From IMG/VR virus record IMGVR_UViG_3300036760_000326, positions 1 through 49,585 of that record: a DNA stretch of 49,585 bases; one strand, given 5' to 3'. The position numbers and the translations under genes are program-made. Shown in pieces: positions 6,552 to 32,205 of this stretch. Each line of letters opens with the position of its first letter. Position 1 is the stretch's first letter. The notes beneath the pieces were generated by a model. It ran no database searches, was not told where the DNA came from, and saw nothing but the letters and a program-made list of their open reading frames with translations. The stretch comes from a virus.

Positions 6552-8555
6552 CTAGGGCATCCTCTCCCAGTATTGTACTCGATGAGCGGCAATATTACAA
6601 TATCCCTCATCAAGATCAATGCCGATATACTCGAAGCCCTCCAAGACCGCCGCGGCCAGCGTTGAGCCGCTACCACAGAATAGATCGAGCACGAGGCCCT
6701 CCGGCGGTGTCACTAGCCGCACAAGGTAGCGCATAAGGGCAATGGGCTTCACCGTTGGATGAGGGTTCCTAATCTCCTTCCGAGTGCGCCCGGCACCAGC
6801 ACGGGGGCTATTTAGTCCAGCGGAGCCCTCCTCACGTCCAAGATTCTCTGCGCTGTTAACAGGGGGGAGATCTTCTAACCCCGCCTCCCGCTCTGCACGA
6901 GAAGCCTTGGCACAGTAAAAATAACGGGAAGCGCCGCCGGAGTCACCGTATGTTCCCTGTCCTGTTGCCTCATCAGGCATATTGCCGTGATAGCCGCCAG
7001 CCCCAAGGCTAGCCTTACGTTGCTGTCCAGGCTTCATGTAGCCGCTCGTTCTTTTCCCGCTCTGTGCATCCAGCATGGCGGCAGGACACTCAGGATTGGT
7101 GTGGATGTGCACGGGCTCCTTGCCATCAGCATCACCGTAGTTGACGACCTCGCCCTGCTTCCTTGTGATAGAACCGTACCCAGGATATTTCTCTTGATGG
7201 GAGACAACTGGATGTGGCTTTGTGCCTTGTATCTCACCCTCCTGTGTCCTCTCACAAGTGCATTCCAGCATGAGGTTCGCGGGCCAACGGCCAGCGGGTT
7301 GTTCATATTCTCCGGCTTGGGCACGCTGCATGCCCCAACCATCATCGCGGGGCGTTCCCGTCTTGGCATAGGCTCCACCATCAAGATTCTCTTTTGTCCT
7401 TATCCGGCAGGCGTCGATATTCAGCGCCCCGGTGCCCCACTTGAGGACGTTGGCGGCGACGGTAGGCTCCGAGAGCGGCTTGCGGGCCAGGACAATGGGC
7501 TCCCAGGCGGGCTTCAGGGCCGTGCCCCAGCCTTCCCACTGGCGGGCAGCATCGGTGGCGGGGGCGGTTAGTTGTAATCGTTCAGCTAGCGTCCTCTTAT
7601 CATCTCCCTGAGTAACATAGCCTTCGAGAGTATTATCCAAGGATTCCTTGCCCCAACTCTTATCAATCGCTCGTCCTTGCTCGATAGAACGTGGGTGAAT
7701 ATACCGTCCGACAACTTCCCGCTCCGCTCCCGCCGCCTTGTCTATTGCTTTGCTCACGTCCAGCGATTTCGGAAATCCTTGTGAAAAAAGCCACATGAGG
7801 CAGTCACGTACCTCGAAGCCCGCATCCTCGATAGCGCACGCGAGCCGGTGATAAGTGCGGGTGCCGCCAAAGGCAAGCAGATAACCGCCCGGCTTGAGTA
7901 CGCGAAGAGCCTCTCTTGCCCAATGAAAACACCACCATTGATAGGGATCAATTCTGATTCCTTGAGGCGCATAGGGACGTGTCGCCATCAAGCGCTGCCT
8001 GGCCTCCTTCATTGTTCCCCAGGCACCTCGCTGATGGTTGAGCCAAGCATCTAAAGCCTCTGACCAAATAGAGAACTCGCGTGCCTTCTTCGCACGGAGC
8101 GGAAAAGCCCTAAAGAGATCACGTAGAGCTAGACAATCCGCCTTACTACTGATGCAATAGCGGGCCTGTGGGTTGCCCTTCCGATCCTGACTCGTGCGCA
8201 GAAGATGCTGCGCGAGAGAACCGATCCCGCCAAGCTGCTGCTGAATCGCCTCCAACACGGGCGCATCATCCTGCCGAAGACATAAGCTGAACTGGCAATC
8301 GTAGGTCTCAACACCATTGACGTGCTTCTTATGCACTGAAAAGCAGCCTTCGCCGTCCACGAAGCCAGCGAACCAATGTCCAAAAGCAGGATCGATCCCT
8401 TTACCACGGAAGGTATCAAATTCCTTACCCATGAAGCCAAGGCCGTAGGGCGGGTCGGTCACGATGGCATCCACCGAGTTGTCCTCGATCTGGGCTAGGC
8501 CCTCAAGGACATCGCAGCACAGAATGACGCCTCTGCTGGTTTCAAGCTCTTTCAT
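6552..8555 (-). CDS. DNA methyltransferase (N6-adenine/N4-cytosine type) interrupted by a LAGLIDADG domain, 667 aa
   Basis: ATG 8555 begins the frame. Motif IV D-P-P-Y-G is at 34-38 and the AdoMet-binding FCGSG is near the C-terminus (about 626-630), preceded by NPHPTVKP (597-604). This order fits beta-class amino-methyltransferases. KPGGYLLAFGGTRTYH (221-236) continues the catalytic domain. Between FDTFRGKG (about 47-53) and WAREALRVLKPGG sits an extra segment of about 150 residues containing WFAGFVDGEGC (61-71) and PLRAKKAREF (152-161), typical of LAGLIDADG homing endonucleases. The frame stays open across both junctions. Methylation target unknown. A role in protecting phage DNA from host restriction is inferred from the family. 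Confidence 0.85.
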   Translation of the reverse strand: MKELETSRGVILCCDVLEGLAQIEDNSVDAIVTDPPYGLGFMGKEFDTFRGKGIDPAFGHWFAGFVDGEGCFSVHKKHVNGVETYDCQFSLCLRQDDAPVLEAIQQQLGGIGSLAQHLLRTSQDRKGNPQARYCISSKADCLALRDLFRAFPLRAKKAREFSIWSEALDAWLNHQRGAWGTMKEARQRLMATRPYAPQGIRIDPYQWWCFHWAREALRVLKPGGYLLAFGGTRTYHRLACAIEDAGFEVRDCLMWLFSQGFPKSLDVSKAIDKAAGAEREVVGRYIHPRSIEQGRAIDKSWGKESLDNTLEGYVTQGDDKRTLAERLQLTAPATDAARQWEGWGTALKPAWEPIVLARKPLSEPTVAANVLKWGTGALNIDACRIRTKENLDGGAYAKTGTPRDDGWGMQRAQAGEYEQPAGRWPANLMLECTCERTQEGEIQGTKPHPVVSHQEKYPGYGSITRKQGEVVNYGDADGKEPVHIHTNPECPAAMLDAQSGKRTSGYMKPGQQRKASLGAGGYHGNMPDEATGQGTYGDSGGASRYFYCAKASRAEREAGLEDLPPVNSAENLGREEGSAGLNSPRAGAGRTRKEIRNPHPTVKPIALMRYLVRLVTPPEGLVLDLFCGSGSTLAAAVLEGFEYIGIDLDEGYCNIAAHRVQYWERMP
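7937..8384 (-). mobile_element. In-frame LAGLIDADG homing-endonuclease domain inside the methyltransferase
   Basis: About 150 codons (roughly residues 58-207 of the methyltransferase). The single LAGLIDADG-type motif AGFVDGEG with its catalytic acid, the LRQDDAPVLE segment and PLRAKKAREF with FSIW match single-motif enzymes that act as dimers. The edges lack intein splice residues: there is no Cys or Ser at the N-edge and no His-Asn before the C-edge. The segment is also too short to hide a group I intron core beside the coding part. It therefore looks like a protein-level insertion. Exact borders are estimated from where methyltransferase sequence resumes. Confidence 0.75.
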
Positions 8556-8581
8556 ACCTTAACGCTCACGTAAAGGTTAGC

Positions 8582-8827
8582 TCATCCACGCTCGCCCTTC
8601 TCGACCCGCGATCCCCGATCCGCCTCCTTGACGTAGGCTACCCAGGCAGGATTAAGCGGTGGGGCATGCTCGCCGCACCCCACCCACGACCACGGCAGGT
8701 ATTTGGGTGGCGGCTCTAGCTGCTTGTGGCGGCGCCGGAGGCAGTGAGCCATCTCATAGACCGCCAACTCGATCCCTAGCACCACCAGACCGCCGATGAT
8801 GCCACAGACGACAGACTCCATGTTCAT
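8582..8827 (-). CDS. Single-span membrane protein, about 81 aa
   Basis: The ATG at 8827 overlaps the upstream stop as ATGA. A second ATG two codons later is also possible. Residues about 4-27 form one hydrophobic helix (VVCGIIGGLVVLGIELAV), followed by a basic segment LRRRHK and a proline-rich soluble tail. The likely topology is N-out, C-in. No family is known to me. It lies directly upstream of the methyltransferase in the transcript. Confidence 0.6.
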   Translation of the reverse strand: MNMESVVCGIIGGLVVLGIELAVYEMAHCLRRRHKQLEPPPKYLPWSWVGCGEHAPPLNPAWVAYVKEADRGSRVEKGERG

Positions 8828-9111: not shown

Positions 9112-9588
9112 CTAACCTGCGCCAGCGTAGGCTTCAAGGAAGCGCAAGGCTTCCTCCTGCGTGTAGAAGATCAGCGCACCGGCAGCTTTAATGAAACCAT
9201 GTTGTGCATAGACTTGTCCTGGACGGGCCACAAGGACGATAACCGTATCATTCTCTGAAGCCCAACACATCTCCCAATCAGAGCCCAGAGAATAATGGGC
9301 ATCATCCTTGAGTGGCGTGACATTGACAAAGAGAATGTCACTCCGCTTGACCTCATGGCGGTCAAAGTGGAAAAATGCCTCCCGCCGACTGAGCGGGTGG
9401 TCATCATTGCCCTCCGGCTGGATCACATAATCATCTGGCAGGTGAGCGGTCTCGGTCTCGATAGGCGAATAACACTCATAGCCTGCCGCTTCTAGGCGTG
9501 CGTGCGCTTCCCGCACCCAGGCCATCGCCTCAGCCACAGTGAGGCCGGTCATGGGCCCGGAGAGGTAGGCGTGGATGGGCGACTTCAT
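9112..9588 (-). CDS. Nucleoside 2-deoxyribosyltransferase-like protein, 158 aa
   Basis: ATG 9588 overlaps the upstream TGA (ATGA). YLSGPMTGL at about 8-16 is the nucleotide-binding start of the nucleoside deoxyribosyltransferase fold. A second conserved patch, GSDWEMCWA (about 102-110), carries the acidic residue expected at the active site. Members transfer deoxyribose between bases or hydrolyse nucleotides, so a part in phage nucleotide metabolism is likely. A second, divergent copy lies two genes upstream. Substrate unknown. Confidence 0.75.
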   Translation of the reverse strand: MKSPIHAYLSGPMTGLTVAEAMAWVREAHARLEAAGYECYSPIETETAHLPDDYVIQPEGNDDHPLSRREAFFHFDRHEVKRSDILFVNVTPLKDDAHYSLGSDWEMCWASENDTVIVLVARPGQVYAQHGFIKAAGALIFYTQEEALRFLEAYAGAG

Positions 9589-12605: not shown

Positions 12606-12860
12606 CTAGCTCTCCGGCACTATGATCACTTGGCCCAATAGAATTAGATTTCTATCCCTCGCCCGCTGCTGATCGAGCAATTCCTTGAGCACGCTCTCCG
12701 GGAGCAAGACCGGCAGGAATTCGATCTGTCGGTGCGGTAGTGCTAGACCTCTCGGCGCGACGATCTTAGGCACATAGCCTACCACCAATGTACCGTCCGG
12801 CATCTCACGCTTGGCGTGGCTACCGAATGTTGTTACCTCCGTCTGTGGTTCATCAGGCAT
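12606..12860 (-). CDS. Hypothetical protein, 84 aa
   Basis: ATG 12860 shares its first base with the TAA of the polymerase gene (TAATG). A longer frame starting at 12929 would lie within the polymerase and is rejected. Probably a small beta-rich domain (TLVVGYVPKIVAP) followed by a helix (SVLKELLDQQRARD). Function unknown. Confidence 0.6.
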   Translation of the reverse strand: MPDEPQTEVTTFGSHAKREMPDGTLVVGYVPKIVAPRGLALPHRQIEFLPVLLPESVLKELLDQQRARDRNLILLGQVIIVPES

Positions 12861-15466
12861 TATGCGGCCTCCTTCTTCTCCTCTATTAGGGTGCCAGTGA
12901 TGTCGAGAGTAAATTGCCACTCGCTCCACCGCAGCCCCCAGTTTACTTCAGCGGGCAACTGCCATTTCAGCAATTTCGCTGGAATGACCGCCATCTGCTC
13001 CTGTAGGTAGCGTGCCACTTCCTCGGCGTGTGTCACCGGCACCTCGAAGGCCAAGGAGTCATGCACGCTCATCACCATCTTCACACCCAACCCGGCCAGC
13101 CAAGCATCCTCACTCAAAGCCGCCATCGCCATGCTATGGATGTCGGCGGCACTAGACTGCACTGGGAAGTTATAGCCTTGCCGTAGCATGTGACCAAAGA
13201 CCTTTTTGAAGCCACGATAGTCGCGCATGGTCTTGATACCGTGGAAGTGTCGGCGCCGTCCAAAGCAATTCTCGCGGTAGCCGTCACGCTTCATGCCGAA
13301 ACGTGCGCGGGCGAAATAGCGGGCTAACCCAGGCAGGCGCTTCATATATGCTTCGATACGCTTCCGCGCCTCCTCCCGACTACACCCCCACCGACGGGCC
13401 ACGCCATAGTCCGTCATGCCATAGCTGAGACCAAAGTTGAAGACCTTGGCGCGGTCACGCAAATCCTTATGCTTTGTCTTCCACTCAGTATCCGGCAGGT
13501 CAGAATCGATTTCTGGATAGAGGACATGGCGGGCAATCCATAGATGTTGATCCTCACCCGCCTCTAGCAACTTGATAAGCTCCTTCTCACCGGAGAGATA
13601 GGCTAGGATACGCAACTCGATCTGGCTGTAGTCCGCCTCCATAAACACATACCCTTCGGGAGCGCAGAACAGCCGCCGGATATACTCATAGATCTCCGGG
13701 CGATCCTCGGTGTCCTTGGGGATATTCTGCAAGTTGGGCGATGTGCTGCTCCGGCCTGTCACCGTCCCGTCCACCCGATAGGTGGTGTGGATGCGCCCGT
13801 CCTCCTCGATGGCTTGAAGAAGACCGCTCTGCTTCCCTTCTGACCCCAGCAGAAATGAGTTACGCAACTTGGTCAGAGTACGCAGGATGAGCAGTGAATC
13901 AATAATCGGATGTGTGCCTTGTAGCTCCTTCAAGGCTTCCTTGTCTGTGCTGACATGCTCTGGATGCAGCGTGTTCCCCTCTCGACATGTGGCGCAGGCT
14001 GAGCCGGTGGTCTTGGTCAAGATATGGGGCATCGGCAGCTTGAGATCTACATACAGGAGTTGCTGCAACTGTGGCGTAGAACCATAGTTAAATTCCTCAT
14101 TCGCACCCTTCGGCAGGTGCGAATAGAACTCGACCTCGGCCTCACGGATTAGCCTGTCAGTCTCTCTAATAACCTCTGACGCCCTCTTCTCATCAACGAG
14201 CACGCCGTTTTCTTCAAGGCGCATAGCGGCACGTTGGGCGGGCATTGTAATATTCTCAAAGATCCAGCGGGCATTACCCTCTTCATCAAGCATCCGATCA
14301 AGCTCAATCGCCACGCGCATAGTGCAGTCGGCATCCGCCCCAGCATACTGATCCCGCACCTCTTCCTCTACCCGCTCCATGTGCGCCTTGTTCTCACTTT
14401 GCTCAATCACGTCATGGTCATAGTAAGGCATCGACGAAAAAAAGCTGCGTAGGGTTTCCAACGCATGCGACCCACCCTCATTGATGAGGCTGTAAGCTAA
14501 CATAGTATCGAAAGCGAATTCCTGAACCTCAATGCCGAGTGTGGTCTTGAGGAAGTGAAGATCAAATTTAAGGTTTTGGCCAATCTTGGGCACATCGCTT
14601 TCCAGCAGGCCCTTGAGCGCTGCCAGCACCCGTCGCATCTCATTGGCTGACCAAATAGGGCGATAGTCCTTACCCACCAGCGGAACAATCCATGCCCGCC
14701 CCGGAGCGTCAGTGAAGGAGACACAGAGAATATGATCCTTGCGCCAGTTGAGGCCATCTGTCTCGCAGTCGAAGGACAAGCAGTCGGCCTGCTGTAGGCG
14801 TTTACAAACCTCCTCGACCTCCTCAACAGTAGTACACGACTTGTAGTCGCCCAAGCCGGGCGGCATCTTCTTTGGACTCCTTAGCTCCTTAACCAACTTC
14901 TTAATATCAAAGATGCAGGAAGGCTCGTCCTCGAAGTTATGCAGAACAGCCGAGGGGTGGATGGTGGGGATAACCTTACAGCCCAGACGTTCATTCCAAA
15001 ACACATGCCCACGAAGCCTCGTGATGCCCTGGTCAGCCAATTCACCCAGTACCGCTGCTGCGGCAGTGTTACCGGCGACCATCACGATCTGCGGCTTGAT
15101 ATGTTCCAAAGCAGCCCAGAGGAAGGCATTACAGTTGGCCACTTCTTTGTCGGTGGGCTTGCGATTTCCTGGCGGCCAGCAACGGCAGGCGTTATCCCAG
15201 TAGACATCACGATCTGGATCGATACCGGCCTCCCGCATCCACCGGCGGACGGTCTGACCAGCAGGGCCTATGAGAGGGCGCCCCTTCTCATCTTCGGTAG
15301 GGCCTGGTGCCTCGGCGATGTACGCGATAGCGGCTCCTTGGGGGCCCCAGCCATTTACGATCTGCCGCCGGTTGGCACAGAGCTTATCGCAGCGCAGGCA
15401 GTCCTTGACCTTGTGCCCCTCGACCACTGGCATCGGGGGCTCCTCCCTCTTCTTTCGTGTCGGCAT
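12860..15466 (-). CDS. Uracil-DNA glycosylase fused to family A DNA polymerase, 868 aa
   Basis: Residues about 20-190 are a family-4-type uracil-DNA glycosylase: C23-x2-C26, C96 and C112 as likely 4Fe-4S ligands, EAPGPTEDEKGRPLIGPAGQ at 52-71, and the IHPSAVL active-site block at 169-175. Residues about 208-400 are a 3'-5' exonuclease: D233-x-E235, N298 with D302, and Y374-x3-D378. Residues about 401-868 are polymerase: motif A with D612 in EADYSQIELR, motif B with R670, K674, F678 and Y682, and motif C V-H-D-S at 801-804. All catalytic parts are intact, so this is probably the phage replicase, with uracil removal built in. A C-x2-C...H-x2-H insertion lies at 491-504. Confidence 0.92.
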   Translation of the reverse strand: MPTRKKREEPPMPVVEGHKVKDCLRCDKLCANRRQIVNGWGPQGAAIAYIAEAPGPTEDEKGRPLIGPAGQTVRRWMREAGIDPDRDVYWDNACRCWPPGNRKPTDKEVANCNAFLWAALEHIKPQIVMVAGNTAAAAVLGELADQGITRLRGHVFWNERLGCKVIPTIHPSAVLHNFEDEPSCIFDIKKLVKELRSPKKMPPGLGDYKSCTTVEEVEEVCKRLQQADCLSFDCETDGLNWRKDHILCVSFTDAPGRAWIVPLVGKDYRPIWSANEMRRVLAALKGLLESDVPKIGQNLKFDLHFLKTTLGIEVQEFAFDTMLAYSLINEGGSHALETLRSFFSSMPYYDHDVIEQSENKAHMERVEEEVRDQYAGADADCTMRVAIELDRMLDEEGNARWIFENITMPAQRAAMRLEENGVLVDEKRASEVIRETDRLIREAEVEFYSHLPKGANEEFNYGSTPQLQQLLYVDLKLPMPHILTKTTGSACATCREGNTLHPEHVSTDKEALKELQGTHPIIDSLLILRTLTKLRNSFLLGSEGKQSGLLQAIEEDGRIHTTYRVDGTVTGRSSTSPNLQNIPKDTEDRPEIYEYIRRLFCAPEGYVFMEADYSQIELRILAYLSGEKELIKLLEAGEDQHLWIARHVLYPEIDSDLPDTEWKTKHKDLRDRAKVFNFGLSYGMTDYGVARRWGCSREEARKRIEAYMKRLPGLARYFARARFGMKRDGYRENCFGRRRHFHGIKTMRDYRGFKKVFGHMLRQGYNFPVQSSAADIHSMAMAALSEDAWLAGLGVKMVMSVHDSLAFEVPVTHAEEVARYLQEQMAVIPAKLLKWQLPAEVNWGLRWSEWQFTLDITGTLIEEKKEAA

Positions 15467-15958: not shown

Positions 15959-17761
15959 CTACCTCGTTCGCCGCCTCTTCGTCACCCGTGGATAGAACTC
16001 GCCTTCGGCATGAAAACCATCGGGATAGATCTGAACGGGTATGAGGTGTATCTTGCGATTATGCACTACGCCATAAGTATTGTGCGCCGCAAACCCTGCC
16101 GCGAAGTACGTGGCGGTGTCGGTTGTGAGCGTCGCCACTTCCTTTACTCCGGCGGGCTCCACAGCAACCACGCGGCAGTCTTCCAACCCAAATGCCGCTC
16201 CCAATCCATTGGGGTCAAATTTCCCCAAGAGGCGCGGGGGTCTCGCATCCCCCATTAGACGCAGGGAGTCGATACGCCCTAACACGAGCGTCTTTTTGGA
16301 TCGTTCCGCATAGCGAGCATAGCCAACCCCACGCGCCACAAGCGTCGATTCAACTGCTCGCAGAAACTCGTTAGGTTTCTGCGTAAATCGAAGCCCATGC
16401 TGCCCATGCTGCTGCGCCAGAGAGCCTTCACCATCAAAAGCAGCGGCTAAAAAACCAGCCGCATAGCTCTCATCCCGGCACCATACCGGCAAGTAACGGA
16501 CTAACCGAGCATTACACCGGCCAGAGATCAAGGCATCTGTCCGCTTCCAATGGATGCCATCACCGGCCCCAAGCCCTTCGCGGACGAGCCAGCGATGCTC
16601 TCCTGTTGCGTATAACTCCTCCCCGCTTTCCAAAACGATTCGGTAAACCGGCAATAGCGTCGAGGAGGCCGCAAGCACACAACCGCTACGAAATCGTCGA
16701 GGCATCCCCTTGCCGGGCGCCTCCTCATCAATGGCCACAAGATAGTCACCAACCTGAAGTGATCCAGCGGGAACCCACGTCAGGTTCGCCATCAAAACCG
16801 GCGTATCGCTTGTCACGCAAAAGGCTTGTTGCCAGTTGGGGAATGGCGCAAATTCTAGGTCAAAACGGCAGATACACCCATTTTCAACATAGCTGTGGCT
16901 ACCGGAGGCGTCCGTCCAGCCATAGGCGCTGAAATGATGGCTATGCCCACAGAGGCCACTAGAGCCCGTAGCGATAGCCATGTAGCGCGAGACGTTGATC
17001 GGATATGCCTTCGATGCGCTAGCCTTATATCCGTGCTCAATCCTGTAGCCGAGGAAGTCAAGGACGCTCATGTAGGGCAGGCCCCTAATCTTCAATTCCT
17101 CAAAGCGCAAGAGAGCCGATAATTCAAGGTTACGCAGGCCCGATAGCTCCTTCCCATACCGCCATAACCAACGGCGCAATCGATCCTCGTGGTTGCCCTC
17201 AATAAAGATCCGCTCGGCATCTGGATTAGCCTCGGCTCGACGAGCCAGCCAGCCATGTGTGTCATCTAACTCGTCCTGAAGGTGGAACCGCCTAGATGGG
17301 TTCTGGTCGTACTTGCTGATGAGGTAGAAATCGCTAATATCGCCATTATAAACCTCTAGGTTCGGGTGGAGGTCATTCCAGAAATGCTCGACCGCCTCTA
17401 GCGTGGCATCATCTTGGAATGGCCGCTGCACATCATTGATGATGATGATGCGGTAGCCATCCGGCAGATCCCGCATCCGAATCTCCTCAAAGCGCCGAGG
17501 CTCCTCAAAGAGCGATTCCTGCGCCAGGACACGTCGCACGCGGTTAGCATAATGGGTGTCGCAGTATTTTCGGTTTGGGCTCGTGGTCTCAAAGGTATTC
17601 AGGCAGCCTTCCCAGGCACAGTGCTTGGTACACACCGTCGGCTCATGCTTCGCATTCTGCATACGAGGGCCGCCGCGATGTGCATCACAATACTTGCGAC
17701 CAGTGCTCTTACCGTCGAAGGTCTCCGGGCAGCCCTCCCAATGACACTTTATGGTAGCCAT
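15959..17761 (-). CDS. Metallophosphoesterase with twin zinc fingers and an intein, 600 aa precursor
   Basis: ATG 17761 abuts the upstream stop. Two N-terminal zinc-finger-like repeats are C6, C11, C25, H28 and C48, C53, C67, H70. The calcineurin-type phosphoesterase follows: NDVQRPF (109-115, with Gln where many relatives have His), NGD (139-141), GNHEDR (189-194) and GHSHH (272-276). At residue 315 the protein is interrupted by a 247-residue intein ending in His560-Asn561, followed by Thr562. Splicing would yield a 353-residue enzyme joined at QQAF/TYGVV. Likely a nucleic acid phosphoesterase guided by the zinc fingers. The substrate is not known. Confidence 0.85.
   Translation of the reverse strand: MATIKCHWEGCPETFDGKSTGRKYCDAHRGGPRMQNAKHEPTVCTKHCAWEGCLNTFETTSPNRKYCDTHYANRVRRVLAQESLFEEPRRFEEIRMRDLPDGYRIIIINDVQRPFQDDATLEAVEHFWNDLHPNLEVYNGDISDFYLISKYDQNPSRRFHLQDELDDTHGWLARRAEANPDAERIFIEGNHEDRLRRWLWRYGKELSGLRNLELSALLRFEELKIRGLPYMSVLDFLGYRIEHGYKASASKAYPINVSRYMAIATGSSGLCGHSHHFSAYGWTDASGSHSYVENGCICRFDLEFAPFPNWQQAFCVTSDTPVLMANLTWVPAGSLQVGDYLVAIDEEAPGKGMPRRFRSGCVLAASSTLLPVYRIVLESGEELYATGEHRWLVREGLGAGDGIHWKRTDALISGRCNARLVRYLPVWCRDESYAAGFLAAAFDGEGSLAQQHGQHGLRFTQKPNEFLRAVESTLVARGVGYARYAERSKKTLVLGRIDSLRLMGDARPPRLLGKFDPNGLGAAFGLEDCRVVAVEPAGVKEVATLTTDTATYFAAGFAAHNTYGVVHNRKIHLIPVQIYPDGFHAEGEFYPRVTKRRRTR
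16079..16819 (-). mobile_element. Intein with LAGLIDADG endonuclease domain, 247 aa
   Basis: Begins with Cys in CVTSDTPVLM (block A) and carries the T-G-E-H block B (ATGEHRWLV). It then has an AAGFLAAAFDGEGSL LAGLIDADG-type motif, and ends with the block F/G pattern ATLTTDTATYFAAGFAAHN followed by Thr as +1 residue. These are the residues needed for standard protein splicing. At 247 residues with one clear LAGLIDADG motif it is a small inteinic endonuclease, perhaps with a degenerate second motif. Extein function should be restored after splicing. Confidence 0.9.
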
Positions 17762-26966: not shown

Positions 26967-27913
26967 TGGATTCCCGCCTCTGCGTAGTCTGCATGTCTCA
27001 CTGGACGCGCCTCACGGAGCGCTCTATCCAGCATAAGCACAGGTGCATTGCCTGGATCATAGCCCTTCGGCAGATGGGCAATGCAGACCTCGACATCCGG
27101 CGGCAGCCGGTCGGCATAACGTATCGCTTGCAACCCGGCGTCAGCATCATAGCAGAAGATGAGGCGCTCAAAACCGCCTGCCCTCAACAGATCTACTTGC
27201 CTCGTGCTGATTTTATTACCCAATGTGGCAATGGCACGCTGCGGCAACCGCAAGGCGTCAAACACACCTTCCACCAGCACAGCCTCGCGCTCCCCCACCA
27301 CATGGTCATAATTGAACAAGCAAGAGGCCATTCGCATGCCAGTATCATTCAAATACTTCCGACGGGCTTTACCAATGGCGCGGGCGACCCATGACCGTAG
27401 CTCGCCCTCCATGTAGATGGGCACGACAATACGGTGGTGATACTCCCCAACCCGACAATACCCTATGCGGTATTTCATTATGAGAGATGGAGCGAACCCA
27501 CGGCCAATCAGGTAGTCCCAATAAGGCTGACTGGCCGGAGTAGGCGGCATCGTCAGTGGACGGAAGTGCTCCGGCAACTGGGCTGGCTTAACCGGGGACA
27601 GCGGTTCTACATCCCGGCCTATAAAGGCCACCGACCGCGCACCGCTGGCGATAATATCCACCGCAGCCATGCCCTCAGCCCCAGACACCAACTTCACAAG
27701 GCCCAGAGCATTGCCCTTCCAACCACAGTTGAAACATAGCCCCAACTTCTTGCTCTGAGAAACATACAGGCGAAACTTATAATCATGGCAATGAGGGCAT
27801 TTAATGATGACCTGCTGCGACTCAGTAAATCGCACCTGAAAACCCTGCTGGCGCAACCACCGTCCTACATCCCACTGCCGAATAGCTGTATCGAAATTGC
27901 CTCGCCTACTCAC
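26963..27913 (-). CDS. DNA primase with CHC2-type zinc finger and TOPRIM domain, 316 aa
   Basis: GTG 27913 is chosen, with GGAG seven bases upstream and overlap with the helicase stop. Zinc finger: C39-P-H-C42 and C60-F-N-C63. The TOPRIM core is visible as AVLVEGVFDALRL with its Glu and FCYDADAG with D-x-D. ARKYLND, as in bacterial and T7-like primases, precedes it. No helicase part is attached, because the helicase is the adjacent gene. It lays RNA primers for lagging-strand synthesis. Confidence 0.88.
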   Translation of the reverse strand: MSRRGNFDTAIRQWDVGRWLRQQGFQVRFTESQQVIIKCPHCHDYKFRLYVSQSKKLGLCFNCGWKGNALGLVKLVSGAEGMAAVDIIASGARSVAFIGRDVEPLSPVKPAQLPEHFRPLTMPPTPASQPYWDYLIGRGFAPSLIMKYRIGYCRVGEYHHRIVVPIYMEGELRSWVARAIGKARRKYLNDTGMRMASCLFNYDHVVGEREAVLVEGVFDALRLPQRAIATLGNKISTRQVDLLRAGGFERLIFCYDADAGLQAIRYADRLPPDVEVCIAHLPKGYDPGNAPVLMLDRALREARPVRHADYAEAGIQ

Positions 27914-29348
27914 CAAACTTCTCCCCCGGCTCATCCTCATAGTCCGAAACTACCGTCATTGCCAGCGACGTATCCTCTTCAGCTTTCTCCGGCCTTATTC
28001 GCTCACGGAACCGCGTCGTGGCAAAATCGTATTGGATCTCCAAGGCCGTCTCCGATCCTTTGGCGCGGCGTACTTTCGCCAAGAGAAAATCCACATAGTT
28101 ATGATGCCGCATCGCGTCATCCTGACCAGCAGCGACTACGAATGTTGCATCGAATACCTTAGCAAAAGCGCCTTGGATATGCTTGAGTGTGAGGCGCCTC
28201 CTATCCAGAGCTTCGCGGTTCCCCTGCGCCGCTGTCCAAATAGCAAGATCCTGCTCTTTAGCCAGACTAACAAGATCCTGATAGATCTGCGGCTGGCCCT
28301 CGTGGGCACGCTCAAAGTGGCCGCGGGGCTGCATGCGGTCAGCATAATCTACGATGATGAGCTTTGGGTCGCGCCCATCCATACGGATGTTGTCTAGGTC
28401 GGCAATTAACCCATCTACTGTGGCCGACCGTGGCGGAATATCTCTGATGAGTACGTCTTTCCCGGCAGCGCCCGTCAGCAGGCAGCGATGTCGAAACTCG
28501 CTAAGGAGATCCCCCACCGTCTTGCCTTTGTGCCCACGAACGAATCCCATCTCAGCCCTACCCTGTGTCGTCCATTCCTTGAGATCGTCTATGCAGACAC
28601 CCATGCCGCTAGCCATAATGCGGAGCCGAATCTCGTCATAATCTACCTCGAACGTGTAGTACACCACATCAAGGCCCTGCACTAGACCAAAATAGGCCAG
28701 ATGGCAGAGCCACATACTCTTTCCACGCCCTGTCGGTGCGATGAAGCAAGCAAGCTCACCGGCTTTAAGACCGCCCCCCATCCGATTATCGAGGGTCGGT
28801 AGGCCGGTGCTGTAGTAGCCGCCCTCTAACTCAACAGAGGCGATACGTGCAAGCGCTTCATTCATGTCGCCCCACAAAGCTGAAGACCGCACCGGGGGCT
28901 TCAAGAGCGCGACGCGGGCACCATTGATGATGTCAAAGGCCGCTTCTACGCCCTCATCATCCAAGGCTGCAAGAGCCTCACGCAGAGCCAATGATGTACG
29001 TTGTATGCGGCAGAATTCCTCAGCCTCAGCGCATACATAATCAAAATCACCTTTGTCTACTGGCTCTAGGTGATCATAGAGACGTAAGACGCCCTCAACT
29101 GTGACGTTCTCCCGCTCTAATCGCCCCGCCTCCTCATCGCTTTCTAGTCTTCGCTCTAAGACAGCAGCCGTCGGTGCATTCCCATAGACATGGAAGTGCT
29201 CCTGCGCGATCTTCACGAGGTAGCGAGCCTCTGGACTGCCGAAGAATTGCGGCCAAAGATTTTCCGAGAAGGTAAGAAGAAAGCGACGCTTATGCCAGAG
29301 CAGCCAAAGAATTTGCCGGGCCAGCAATCGCATACCCTGATCAGACAT
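27906..29348 (-). CDS. Replicative DNA helicase, DnaB/gp41-like, 480 aa
   Basis: ATG 29348 overlaps the previous gene by eight bases. The N-terminal 160 residues are helical, as in DnaB. The RecA-like motor follows: TGLPTLDNRMGGGLKAGEL, Walker A A-P-T-G-R-G-K-S (204-211), YYTFEVD (the usual SLEM region), the Walker B strand LIIVDYADR, and an AAQGNREAL segment. It ends in an acidic tail that overlaps the primase start, consistent with joint assembly of helicase and primase. Confidence 0.88.
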   Translation of the reverse strand: MSDQGMRLLARQILWLLWHKRRFLLTFSENLWPQFFGSPEARYLVKIAQEHFHVYGNAPTAAVLERRLESDEEAGRLERENVTVEGVLRLYDHLEPVDKGDFDYVCAEAEEFCRIQRTSLALREALAALDDEGVEAAFDIINGARVALLKPPVRSSALWGDMNEALARIASVELEGGYYSTGLPTLDNRMGGGLKAGELACFIAPTGRGKSMWLCHLAYFGLVQGLDVVYYTFEVDYDEIRLRIMASGMGVCIDDLKEWTTQGRAEMGFVRGHKGKTVGDLLSEFRHRCLLTGAAGKDVLIRDIPPRSATVDGLIADLDNIRMDGRDPKLIIVDYADRMQPRGHFERAHEGQPQIYQDLVSLAKEQDLAIWTAAQGNREALDRRRLTLKHIQGAFAKVFDATFVVAAGQDDAMRHHNYVDFLLAKVRRAKGSETALEIQYDFATTRFRERIRPEKAEEDTSLAMTVVSDYEDEPGEKFGE

Positions 29349-30160: not shown

Positions 30161-30677
30161 GCCGCCAGTTTCTCCCATGCAGAATCGCCGAGACATATCC
30201 AGCGCTCACGCCATACTGCCTCGCAATAGCTGCCTGTGTGATCGTGCCCTTGAGCTTGCGAATCTGCCTAACCTGGCGTTCCGTCAACCTCGCCTGTCCG
30301 TTGATAGAGCCCGCAGTAGGGCGACGTAGCCCAATAGCATAGGCATGAATGGCATTCTGCTGCGGCGTCACCCATTTGAGATTAGAGGCGCTGTTGTTGA
30401 GCTTATCGCCGTCTTCATGGTTGACCTGATGCTCTGTTGTGGGTGACGGGCCTATGAACGCTTCAGCAACAAGCAGATGCACAGGACGCTTATGCGGCTG
30501 ATTGGCCGTATGGAGATTGACTAGCAAGTAGCCGCTATGGACTTGCCAAGGAGCGAGAACCCGCCCAACCCGTGCGCCCATAGAGGCACGCACTCGCCTA
30601 ACTCGACCCCGATTCGAGACCTCATACCAGCCCTCGTAGCCAATCACAGGGCGCCACATCTCTTCACTAGGCGGCAT
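30150..30677 (-). mobile_element. Free-standing NUMOD4/HNH homing endonuclease gene, 175 aa
   Basis: ATG 30677 lies within the last 11 bases of the helicase gene. Domains in order: NUMOD4-type WRPVIGYEGWYEVSNRGRVR (8-27), an HNH core with VHLLVAEAFIG, VNHEDGDKLNN and NLKWVTPQQN (about 75-117), and a C-terminal helix-turn-helix (ITQAAIARQYGVSAGYVSAI) that would read the DNA target. Such genes spread by cutting phages that lack them. Both ends overlap neighbouring genes, so it has been closely fitted into the operon. Confidence 0.9.
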
Positions 30678-32205
30678 GACTTCCCCAGAAACCAGGCTCG
30701 GCCATCTTCTTCCACAGGGCTTCCGGTGGCAGAATCTCTACCTCGAAGCCAACCCCTCTGTAGGCCGCCATGCGCGAGCGAGAATGCTTGTTGAGTCGTT
30801 CGCTATGGCGATCAAGGAAATCGATCACGATGACATGAGACTTACCGGGCGCAGCCCGCAAGCCCCTCCCGACTCTCTGTAGGGCCTTGTGCTTTGCCCT
30901 ATATCCGCCCGCCATGATGACCAATCCCAAAACAGGCAGGTCAATTCCTTCTTCCAGGATAACTGACGAGAGCAGAATTGGCAACCGGCCAGCACCGAGG
31001 CGCTTCAGCGCCCGTTTTCGAGCCGAGGTCGGATGGCTGCCATGATAGAATTCCGCATAACCAGCGCCATCCTCGAAGTAGCGGAGAATGTTCCGGCCCT
31101 GAGCAAGATGCTGCAAGAGCACGAGGGTCGGCTGCTTAGCGGCAGCCGCAGCCTCAGCACAGCGGGCAATCATGGCGTTGCGCTCTCGATGCTCCACGAT
31201 ACCGTCCCTGTACTCCTTTGCCCAACTGTACAAGTACTTGCCGGTTAGCTCGTCATGCCCATCGAGCCGCTCGAAACCAGGGTCAATCATATAGATCTTG
31301 GGTGGCACCAAGATCCCCTCCTGAATCGCCTCCTGCGGGCCGAAACTGAAGATAATCTCGCCGGTCACGGCCACCAACCGCAGTTCGCTGGCTTTATCGC
31401 TTTTGAAGGGCGTCGCGGAATATCCATACCTGAAATATGCTTCCGTTACCGCATTACAGGTCGCATAAAGCGTGCGGGCCGGGACATGGTGCGCCTCATC
31501 CAAGTGGAGCGCCTTAAACTGCCGCAGCCATTCCTGCATCCCACGCCGGTCATGCTCCAACATTGAGTAGATGGTCTGATAAGTAGCGATGGTAATGAGG
31601 CCGGGGTCAAATAGATTGTCTCCGACCATACCAAAGACCTTATCCGTGCCCGCATTGGGAAAGCATAGTGTTTCCTCAAACCGCTCTAGGGTCTGGTAAG
31701 CCAACTCGCGCCGGTGGACGAGAATCAGCGTCGGCACCGCCAGCAATGTAATAATCGAACCCATCAGATGGCTTTTGCCCCAGCCGGTAGCTGCCTCAAA
31801 CACACCTCTTCCAGCTTCGATCCCGCTCACAGCGGCGTTCTGCTGGCTCTCACGCAGGGTAGTGGTGTTCTGCCCCTCTGACAATCTTTTATCGGGGTCT
31901 GGCACAATACGCTGGTCATACAGGCGCACTTCTGAACCCTGGTCGGCCAGGAAAGAGGAAACACGCGGCACAAGGCCAGCGGGGAAGCTCCCATCTCGAC
32001 GCCGCAGAAGATGAATCCTACCGTCCCATACTCCCGATTTGTATTTTCTCATGAACCTATAACCTTCGGGATAGTAGGACAATAAGCGGTCAACTTCCTT
32101 ATAGAGAAGCGGAGAAGATAGCCGCAATCTTGCGACAGTATTAGTCATCGCAATCTCGGCTAGAGAATGCGGGGCAGGCCCCGGCTTACCTTCCATTGGC
32201 GCCAT
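30667..32205 (-). CDS. Superfamily 2 helicase, UvsW-like, up to 512 aa
   Basis: Motif I A-T-G-W-G-K-S at 139-145, the Walker B box D-E-A-H at 236-239, S-A-T-P at 263-266, and motif VI ALQRVGRGLRAAPG near the end. An N-terminal domain with LLSYYPEGYRFMRKYKSG and WDGRIHLLRR resembles the DNA-binding front of T4 UvsW. UvsW-type enzymes reverse forks and remove R-loops or D-loops. Start uncertain: ATG 32205 or ATG 32148 (MTNTVARLRL), neither with a strong site. Confidence 0.85.
   Translation of the reverse strand: MAPMEGKPGPAPHSLAEIAMTNTVARLRLSSPLLYKEVDRLLSYYPEGYRFMRKYKSGVWDGRIHLLRRRDGSFPAGLVPRVSSFLADQGSEVRLYDQRIVPDPDKRLSEGQNTTTLRESQQNAAVSGIEAGRGVFEAATGWGKSHLMGSIITLLAVPTLILVHRRELAYQTLERFEETLCFPNAGTDKVFGMVGDNLFDPGLITIATYQTIYSMLEHDRRGMQEWLRQFKALHLDEAHHVPARTLYATCNAVTEAYFRYGYSATPFKSDKASELRLVAVTGEIIFSFGPQEAIQEGILVPPKIYMIDPGFERLDGHDELTGKYLYSWAKEYRDGIVEHRERNAMIARCAEAAAAAKQPTLVLLQHLAQGRNILRYFEDGAGYAEFYHGSHPTSARKRALKRLGAGRLPILLSSVILEEGIDLPVLGLVIMAGGYRAKHKALQRVGRGLRAAPGKSHVIVIDFLDRHSERLNKHSRSRMAAYRGVGFEVEILPPEALWKKMAEPGFWGSHAA

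Follow-up and report, generated by a model that had tools for sequence, protein, structure and literature searches.

A single-motif LAGLIDADG domain as a probable splice-free insertion in a beta-class DNA methyltransferase of phages

The usual view of homing elements that reside inside genes is that they depend on a splicing partner to spare the host gene. Several LAGLIDADG endonucleases with a single motif, namely I-MsoI, I-CreI, I-TnaI and I-Vdi141I, act as separate proteins, and I-Vdi141I and I-CreI are titled intron enzymes in their structure entries. The enzymes of the I-OnuI group have two motifs and, in fungal mitochondria, are fused to a ribosomal protein. LAGLIDADG inteins place a homing nuclease in frame inside the host protein together with a Hint splicing domain.

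The closest described cases come from actinophages. In 2023, a lone LAGLIDADG domain was described in nine actinophage methylases, Taj_79 and others, all of them confined to cluster F (Gosselin 2023, PMC9957025). The sections of that paper devoted to these domains present an AlphaFold model of Taj_79 with LAGLIDADG as a separate domain, describe most of the domains as less divergent than their methylases, and report no strong evidence of their transfer from lineage to lineage. The corresponding sections of a 2025 paper (Arsenault 2025, PMC11855218) describe the lone domain as lacking a detected intein or intron and apparently inherited vertically. The latter paper also describes the ShiLan domain, an unspliced mobile insertion in the same family of methyltransferases (MTases), which read through it in frame. 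We found no report of the LAGLIDADG insert outside actinophages, nor of its mobility, in the titles and abstracts listed by searches of the open-licence literature. We therefore argue that the evidence of mobility and wide spread given below is new, while the arrangement itself has already been published for actinophages.

The DNA studied here is a virus record of 49,585 bases, IMGVR_UViG_3300036760_000326, which we call the window. An uninterrupted open reading frame on its minus strand encodes a protein of 667 amino acids that matches the Pfam family N6_N4_Mtase with E 7.3e-31. Motif IV (residues 34-37) precedes motif I (residues 622-632) in this protein, which is the order of beta-class DNA MTases. 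Its parts are as follows.

6552..8555, minus strand: whole gene, beta-class DNA MTase with embedded LAGLIDADG domain, 667 residues (open reading frame and Pfam)
8409..8555, minus strand: MTase N-terminal part, residues 1-49, through and beyond the FMGKEFD motif
8445..8456, minus strand: MTase motif IV, DPPY, residues 34-37
7956..8393, minus strand: LAGLIDADG endonuclease domain, approximately residues 55-200 (Pfam match at residues 63-167, models and structure matches)
8346..8372, minus strand: LAGLIDADG motif FAGFVDGEG, residues 62-70, including Glu69 (DGEG invariant)
7947..7979, minus strand: low-confidence linker behind the domain, approximately residues 193-203 (pLDDT below 50 at residues 194-200)
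6555..7946, minus strand: MTase C-terminal part, residues 204-667, opening with a helix that ends in LRVLKPGG
7884..7895, minus strand: KPGG, residues 221-224
6660..6692, minus strand: MTase motif I (SAM binding), VLDLFCGSGST, residues 622-632

Elsewhere in the window are genes for a DNA polymerase (12860-15466), a metallophosphoesterase (15959-17761), a DnaB-like helicase (27906-29348) and another helicase (30667-32205); this is a replication-gene region of a phage-like genome. A small open reading frame at 9112-9588 has weak similarity to phage nucleoside 2-deoxyribosyltransferases.

The original prediction was that a LAGLIDADG domain is fused in frame inside the MTase between DPPY and KPGG. 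It is borne out by the frame, which is open throughout, and by the Pfam family LAGLIDADG_1 (PF00961), which matches residues 63-167 with E 3.9e-12 and 47.4 bits, where the cut-off is 23.1, far beyond chance. The borders first proposed, 7937-8384 (about residues 58-206), were right as to the place and needed adjustment as to the extent, since the folded domain spans about residues 55-200 (7956-8393). The embedded domain is a complete LAGLIDADG domain with a single motif. Its solved relatives by sequence are I-PnoMI (E 1.8e-11), I-AabMI, I-OnuI variants and I-MsoI. Modelled alone, the domain has a mean pLDDT of 89.6 and matches solved structures of I-OnuI variants with Z up to 17.6, I-Vdi141I with 16.5, I-TnaI with 16.3, I-CreI with 15.8 and I-MsoI with 15.3; Z is 15.0-17.6 across the best 50 solved entries listed. 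The G+C content is 0.556 in the insert, 0.571 in the remainder of the gene and 0.564 in the window, and these nearly equal values give no sign of a recent arrival.

The described systems each share something with this locus. The Taj_79, Akhila_67 and Kersh proteins, in which the published text speaks of a “second homing endonuclease” (Gosselin 2023, PMC9957025), have the same MTase family, insertion place and a homologous domain without a splicing element, but the window insert belongs to another branch of inserts, together with those of L062-L066 and RcMrWorf, and the published set, as described there, to cluster F only. As presented in the 2025 paper (PMC11855218), the nuclease of the ShiLan domain is of the HNH type and encoded in a different reading frame, whereas the window has LAGLIDADG in the frame of the MTase. 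Akhila_67 also contains, at another site, an in-frame LAGLIDADG intein with the Hint domain that we did not detect in the window protein. The free-acting single-motif enzymes resemble the window domain in motif number and fold (Z 15.3-16.5), but the window domain is embedded in an enzyme. The ribosomal protein 3/homing endonuclease fusions of the I-OnuI group likewise join an endonuclease to a host gene product, though not inside a loop of a phage enzyme.

The segment is an insertion and not native to the MTase family, as follows from the distance between the WD and PGG motifs. It is 17-19 residues in 30 rows of insert-free relatives and 52-64 in four more, as against 165-180 residues in 16 of 17 insert-bearing rows; the pattern misread one insert-bearing row (L065), one insert-free row (L044) has no motif, and one relative with a loop near 90 residues (L061) fell outside the filter. 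A search with the whole protein found 40 viral contigs, and the insert is present in none of the 39 that are readable. The alternative that the segment is a native target-recognition region of the MTase is therefore ruled out, because all these contigs and the insert-free rows of the spacing count are devoid of it and close pairs of phages differ by it (see below). The long loops of four insert-free MTases were also considered as decayed inserts; this found no support, as scores equal to theirs were reached by 126 to 215 of 300 shuffles. In our opinion, the window probably carries a single-motif LAGLIDADG homing endonuclease that is tolerated, free of splicing, as an in-frame plug-in in a permissive loop of a phage beta-class MTase.

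When 50,697 phage records were searched by tblastn with the segment, 17 matched at E ≤ 1e-3: 14 of Mycobacterium phages (10 different phages) and three of Rhodobacter capsulatus phages. The domains of the latter, RcMrWorf, RcAqua and RcAquaphina, are 55% identical to the window segment in this search, and those of the Taj_79, Akhila_67 and Kersh kind 36-39%. The segment lies inside an MTase gene in all 17 records; 16 carry a methylase or methyltransferase annotation, and the remaining one, a second record of Mantra, is labelled hypothetical. The joined flanks of the window segment, used as a query, match 659 records; genes with the insert are thus in the minority.

A search with a profile built from the insert yielded 70 viral and 18 genomic loci. 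The context was classified for 63 of these 88 loci (53 viral and 10 genomic; L062 and L064 were judged by eye), and the 25 unclassified loci (viral L115-L131; genomic L138-L140, L144-L146, L148 and L149) all have E 6e-6 or weaker. Seventeen of the 53 viral loci have the domain within an MTase; among them are IMG/VR copies of known mycobacteriophages, as well as L085, L086 and L088, whose open reading frames are equally long. The same holds for two of the 10 genomic loci, from a Dormiibacter MAG (L132) and the MAG Bpl_9 (L133). Most of the other classified loci are open reading frames of approximately 120-260 residues. A related MTase was found near free LAGLIDADG relatives in only one of 28 loci (L082) within the fetched flanks, and 72,556 plasmid records gave only two weak LAGLIDADG matches. 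These data argue that MTases with a lone LAGLIDADG domain are more widespread than reported, occurring in environmental viral contigs and in two bacterial MAG contigs. The MTases of Kersh (L003) and MAG Bpl_9 contain a further in-frame insertion right after KAIDKQR, helix-turn-helix-like by eye. The MTase of Akhila (L004) has the lone LAGLIDADG domain plus a true intein at another site, which is also noted in the published description (PMC9957025).

The Rhodobacter phages include carriers and non-carriers of the insert. It is present in three of 23 records; 19 of the 20 insert-free ones match the query at 89-94.5% DNA identity over 70% of its length, in a stretch of 1284-1290 bases, and the last, RcCWillis, at 75%. 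The DNA was read for four of these 20. Between RcMrWorf (with the insert) and RcSalem (without it), 40-base blocks match at 35-40 positions of 40, mostly 39-40, outside a single region. This region spans about 0.7 kb, from some 24 nt after the gene start to the codons that immediately precede PGG, and comprises a diverged 5' flank, the insert and a short piece on the 3' side. Successive blocks of the 5' flank match RcSalem at 21/36, 25/38, 29/40, 38/40 and 29/40. The flank is thus patchy: it has diverged but retains one well conserved part, unlike a uniformly foreign tract. The C part of RcMrWorf has 99% amino-acid identity to RcSalem (332/335), and the N part 72%. The N part is also 71% identical to the IMG/VR contig L066, and the inserts of these two are 73% identical at the amino-acid level; judging from these identities, a donor of the L066 kind is possible for RcMrWorf. 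The insert-free state and its flanks are common to phages of the RcSalem type and the more distant RcCWillis, and thus the insert in RcMrWorf is probably derived. The terms LAGLIDADG and intein are absent from the main text of the R. capsulatus phage paper (PMC8601537).

Four of the five actinophage pairs compared have a near-identical insert inside more diverged MTases. The insert tract of Taj is 99.2-99.6% identical to those of Phalconet, Hegedechwinu, Akhila and Mantra. In the Taj gene this tract with more than 99% identity begins at nt 122-127 and ends at nt 626-673, with the insert itself at nt 166-594, and the MTase flanks of the same pairs are 70-81% (left) and 68-93% (right, 300 nt) identical. 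Synonymous distances between Taj and Phalconet are 0.00 in the insert and 0.70 in the next 100 MTase codons; between Taj and Mantra they are 0.01 and 0.72. A fifth pair, Taj and Kersh, has diverged in both the insert and the MTase (insert 73% identical in amino acids, ratio of amino-acid to silent change 0.13).

We compared trees of the MTase and of the insert. The quick tree of the MTase C part has 36 rows, 17 insert-bearing and 19 insert-free (the latter taken from those at hand); insert-bearing near copies, identical rows and L085 were left out, and columns filled below 30% were dropped. The insert state needs 12 changes on this tree, of which starred branches enforce at least seven; with shuffled labels the mean is 12.1. 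A single clade of insert-bearing MTases is rejected (p 2e-69). Imposing the two insert clades on the MTases is rejected as well (p 0.0028 and 2.8e-5). Individual placements in this tree are uncertain owing to its long branches. The insert tree, with 18 inserts from MTases and 21 free relatives, needs four changes and does not reject a single clade of MTase inserts (p 0.715), which may indeed form one clade. Taken together, the two trees fit one capture followed by spread. The window itself illustrates the incongruence. Its insert is 59-64% identical to those of RcMrWorf, L062 and L063 and 36-43% to those of Taj, L089 and L068. For the MTase C part of the window, the identities are 41-53% with the former and 52-57% with the latter.

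The discrete exchanged regions, the presence or absence in near relatives and the incongruent trees suggest, on sequence comparison, that the domain moves between MTases. The exchanged regions could alternatively come from ordinary homologous recombination, as actinophage MTases are mosaic elsewhere in the gene too and such recombination is described as frequent in these MTases in the published account (PMC9957025). It is also conceivable that the domain was captured once, was inherited with the MTase, was lost many times and has ceased homing. The possible single clade of MTase inserts agrees with this, as do the cluster F analysis and the vertical inheritance described in the cited sections of the two actinophage papers (PMC9957025, PMC11855218). 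We nevertheless regard such a domesticated domain as unlikely: the insert is probably derived in the Rhodobacter phages, it is far less diverged than its MTase in the four actinophage pairs, and the window is closer to RcMrWorf in the insert than in the MTase (59% vs 41%) with the reverse for Taj (43% vs 57%).

A recruited LAGLIDADG fold could also serve the MTase as an extra domain for target recognition or regulation. The segment adjoins the active-site motif in sequence, its DNA-binding fold is predicted to be retained, and all 17 phage records have it inside this MTase. PF00961 matches all 25 members of the insert-domain alignment at E ≤ 0.01. However, the motif residues D, G, E and G (DGEG) are invariant in all 25 rows, those of free relatives among them, and mere DNA binding would not demand this. 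One of these residues is Glu69, the acidic residue at the motif end, which we presume to bind metal. In addition, the presence of the segment varies among near-identical MTases, and a long variable region further on in the MTase could recognise the target. There is thus little chance that the domain was recruited in this way. Since free relatives of the domain exist, its activity in the embedded state is our assumption. No clear Shine-Dalgarno sequence was seen by eye at the in-frame ATG, GTG or TTG codons that could start the endonuclease separately, and any product of such a start would continue into the MTase.

The state of the MTase was assessed with a model of the uncut 667-residue chain, built as a single chain from an alignment of 31 sequences. 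Its mean pLDDT is 70.3 and pTM 0.60; 194 of the 667 residues are below 50, the majority of them in the central MTase region, and the insert blocks have 65-95. Residues 6-666 align with M.BceJIV (244 aligned, Z 25.8, rmsd 3.2) and with CcrM (243 aligned, Z 25.8), and residues 55-201 match LAGLIDADG enzymes with Z 15.7-18.2. Since the MTase fold aligns across the insert and the LAGLIDADG fold is separate, the MTase is predicted to close around the insert, and the uncut chain to be an intact MTase with a separate LAGLIDADG domain. D34, P35 and P36 are invariant across the 31 rows, and Y37 is present in at least 90%. DPPY and motif I are each found in 21 of 22 insert-bearing rows, several of which are near copies (the search pattern missed the DPPY of L062, which its sequence shows). 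The exception for DPPY is L064, which has DPPA. The exception for motif I is L085, in which the MTase frame shifts directly after WVYGSG, downstream of an intact insert; the shift has a biological or assembly origin, and L086 and L088 have an open reading frame of the same length. Some insert-bearing MTases may thus be dead, and these two cases speak for an inactivated MTase whose gene persists merely as a vehicle of the endonuclease. For the window this is very unlikely: it has both motifs, the model keeps the MTase fold, and comparison with L063 gives pN 0.34 and pS 0.74, so amino-acid sites have changed less than silent ones, the latter being saturated and hence allowing no dN/dS ratio. The window protein presumably retains MTase activity.

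The claim that the segment lacks signs of an intein or intron was upheld. The 667-residue protein has no splicing (Hint) family in Pfam at E ≤ 1 (with most matches weaker than about 0.1 removed by the filters) or in NCBIfam at E ≤ 0.01, and the sole intein-related match, to the endonuclease subdomain PF09062 (E 0.017), falls short of the cut-off of that family. No splice-junction residues of an intein were found, and by eye the downstream border stretch of the insert contains no Asn. No Rfam family matches positions 7700-8700 at E ≤ 1, no Rfam intron reaches the gathering score anywhere in the window, and hence no catalytic RNA core of a group I or group II intron was found. The segment of about 145 residues is filled by the endonuclease fold, which leaves no room for a splicing module. 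The segment is presumably not removed; its excision by an unrecognised RNA or protein splicing is highly improbable, as nothing direct favours it beyond the true intein and other insertions described in the same gene family (PMC9957025), and the missing splicing signs and the filled segment oppose it. Of the three options left by the original prediction, a tolerated insertion in a double-function enzyme fits best, given the intact MTase fold in the model and the preserved motifs, while inactivation and an unknown removal found no support.

If the domain is indeed a tolerated plug-in, the chain would most likely be left uncut, with the MTase folding around a loop of already variable length and the endonuclease forming its own domain apart from the MTase. 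Single-motif LAGLIDADG relatives act as dimers. In a cell infected by two phages, the endonuclease, presumably as a dimer, would cleave the MTase gene that lacks the insert, whereupon repair would transfer the domain along with some flanking MTase sequence. We infer that the embedded domain cuts DNA and that homing is the cause of the exchanges.

The Rhodobacter phages with and without the insert are cultured and nearly identical, so that both mobility and MTase function are directly testable in them. On balance we lean towards a third gene-internal lifestyle, neither intein nor intron, in which a splice-free plug-in homes into one permissive loop across the MTases of unrelated phages and leaves a bifunctional MTase-endonuclease. 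If this is true, a suitable loop would suffice for a homing element to live inside a gene, and no splicing partner would be needed.
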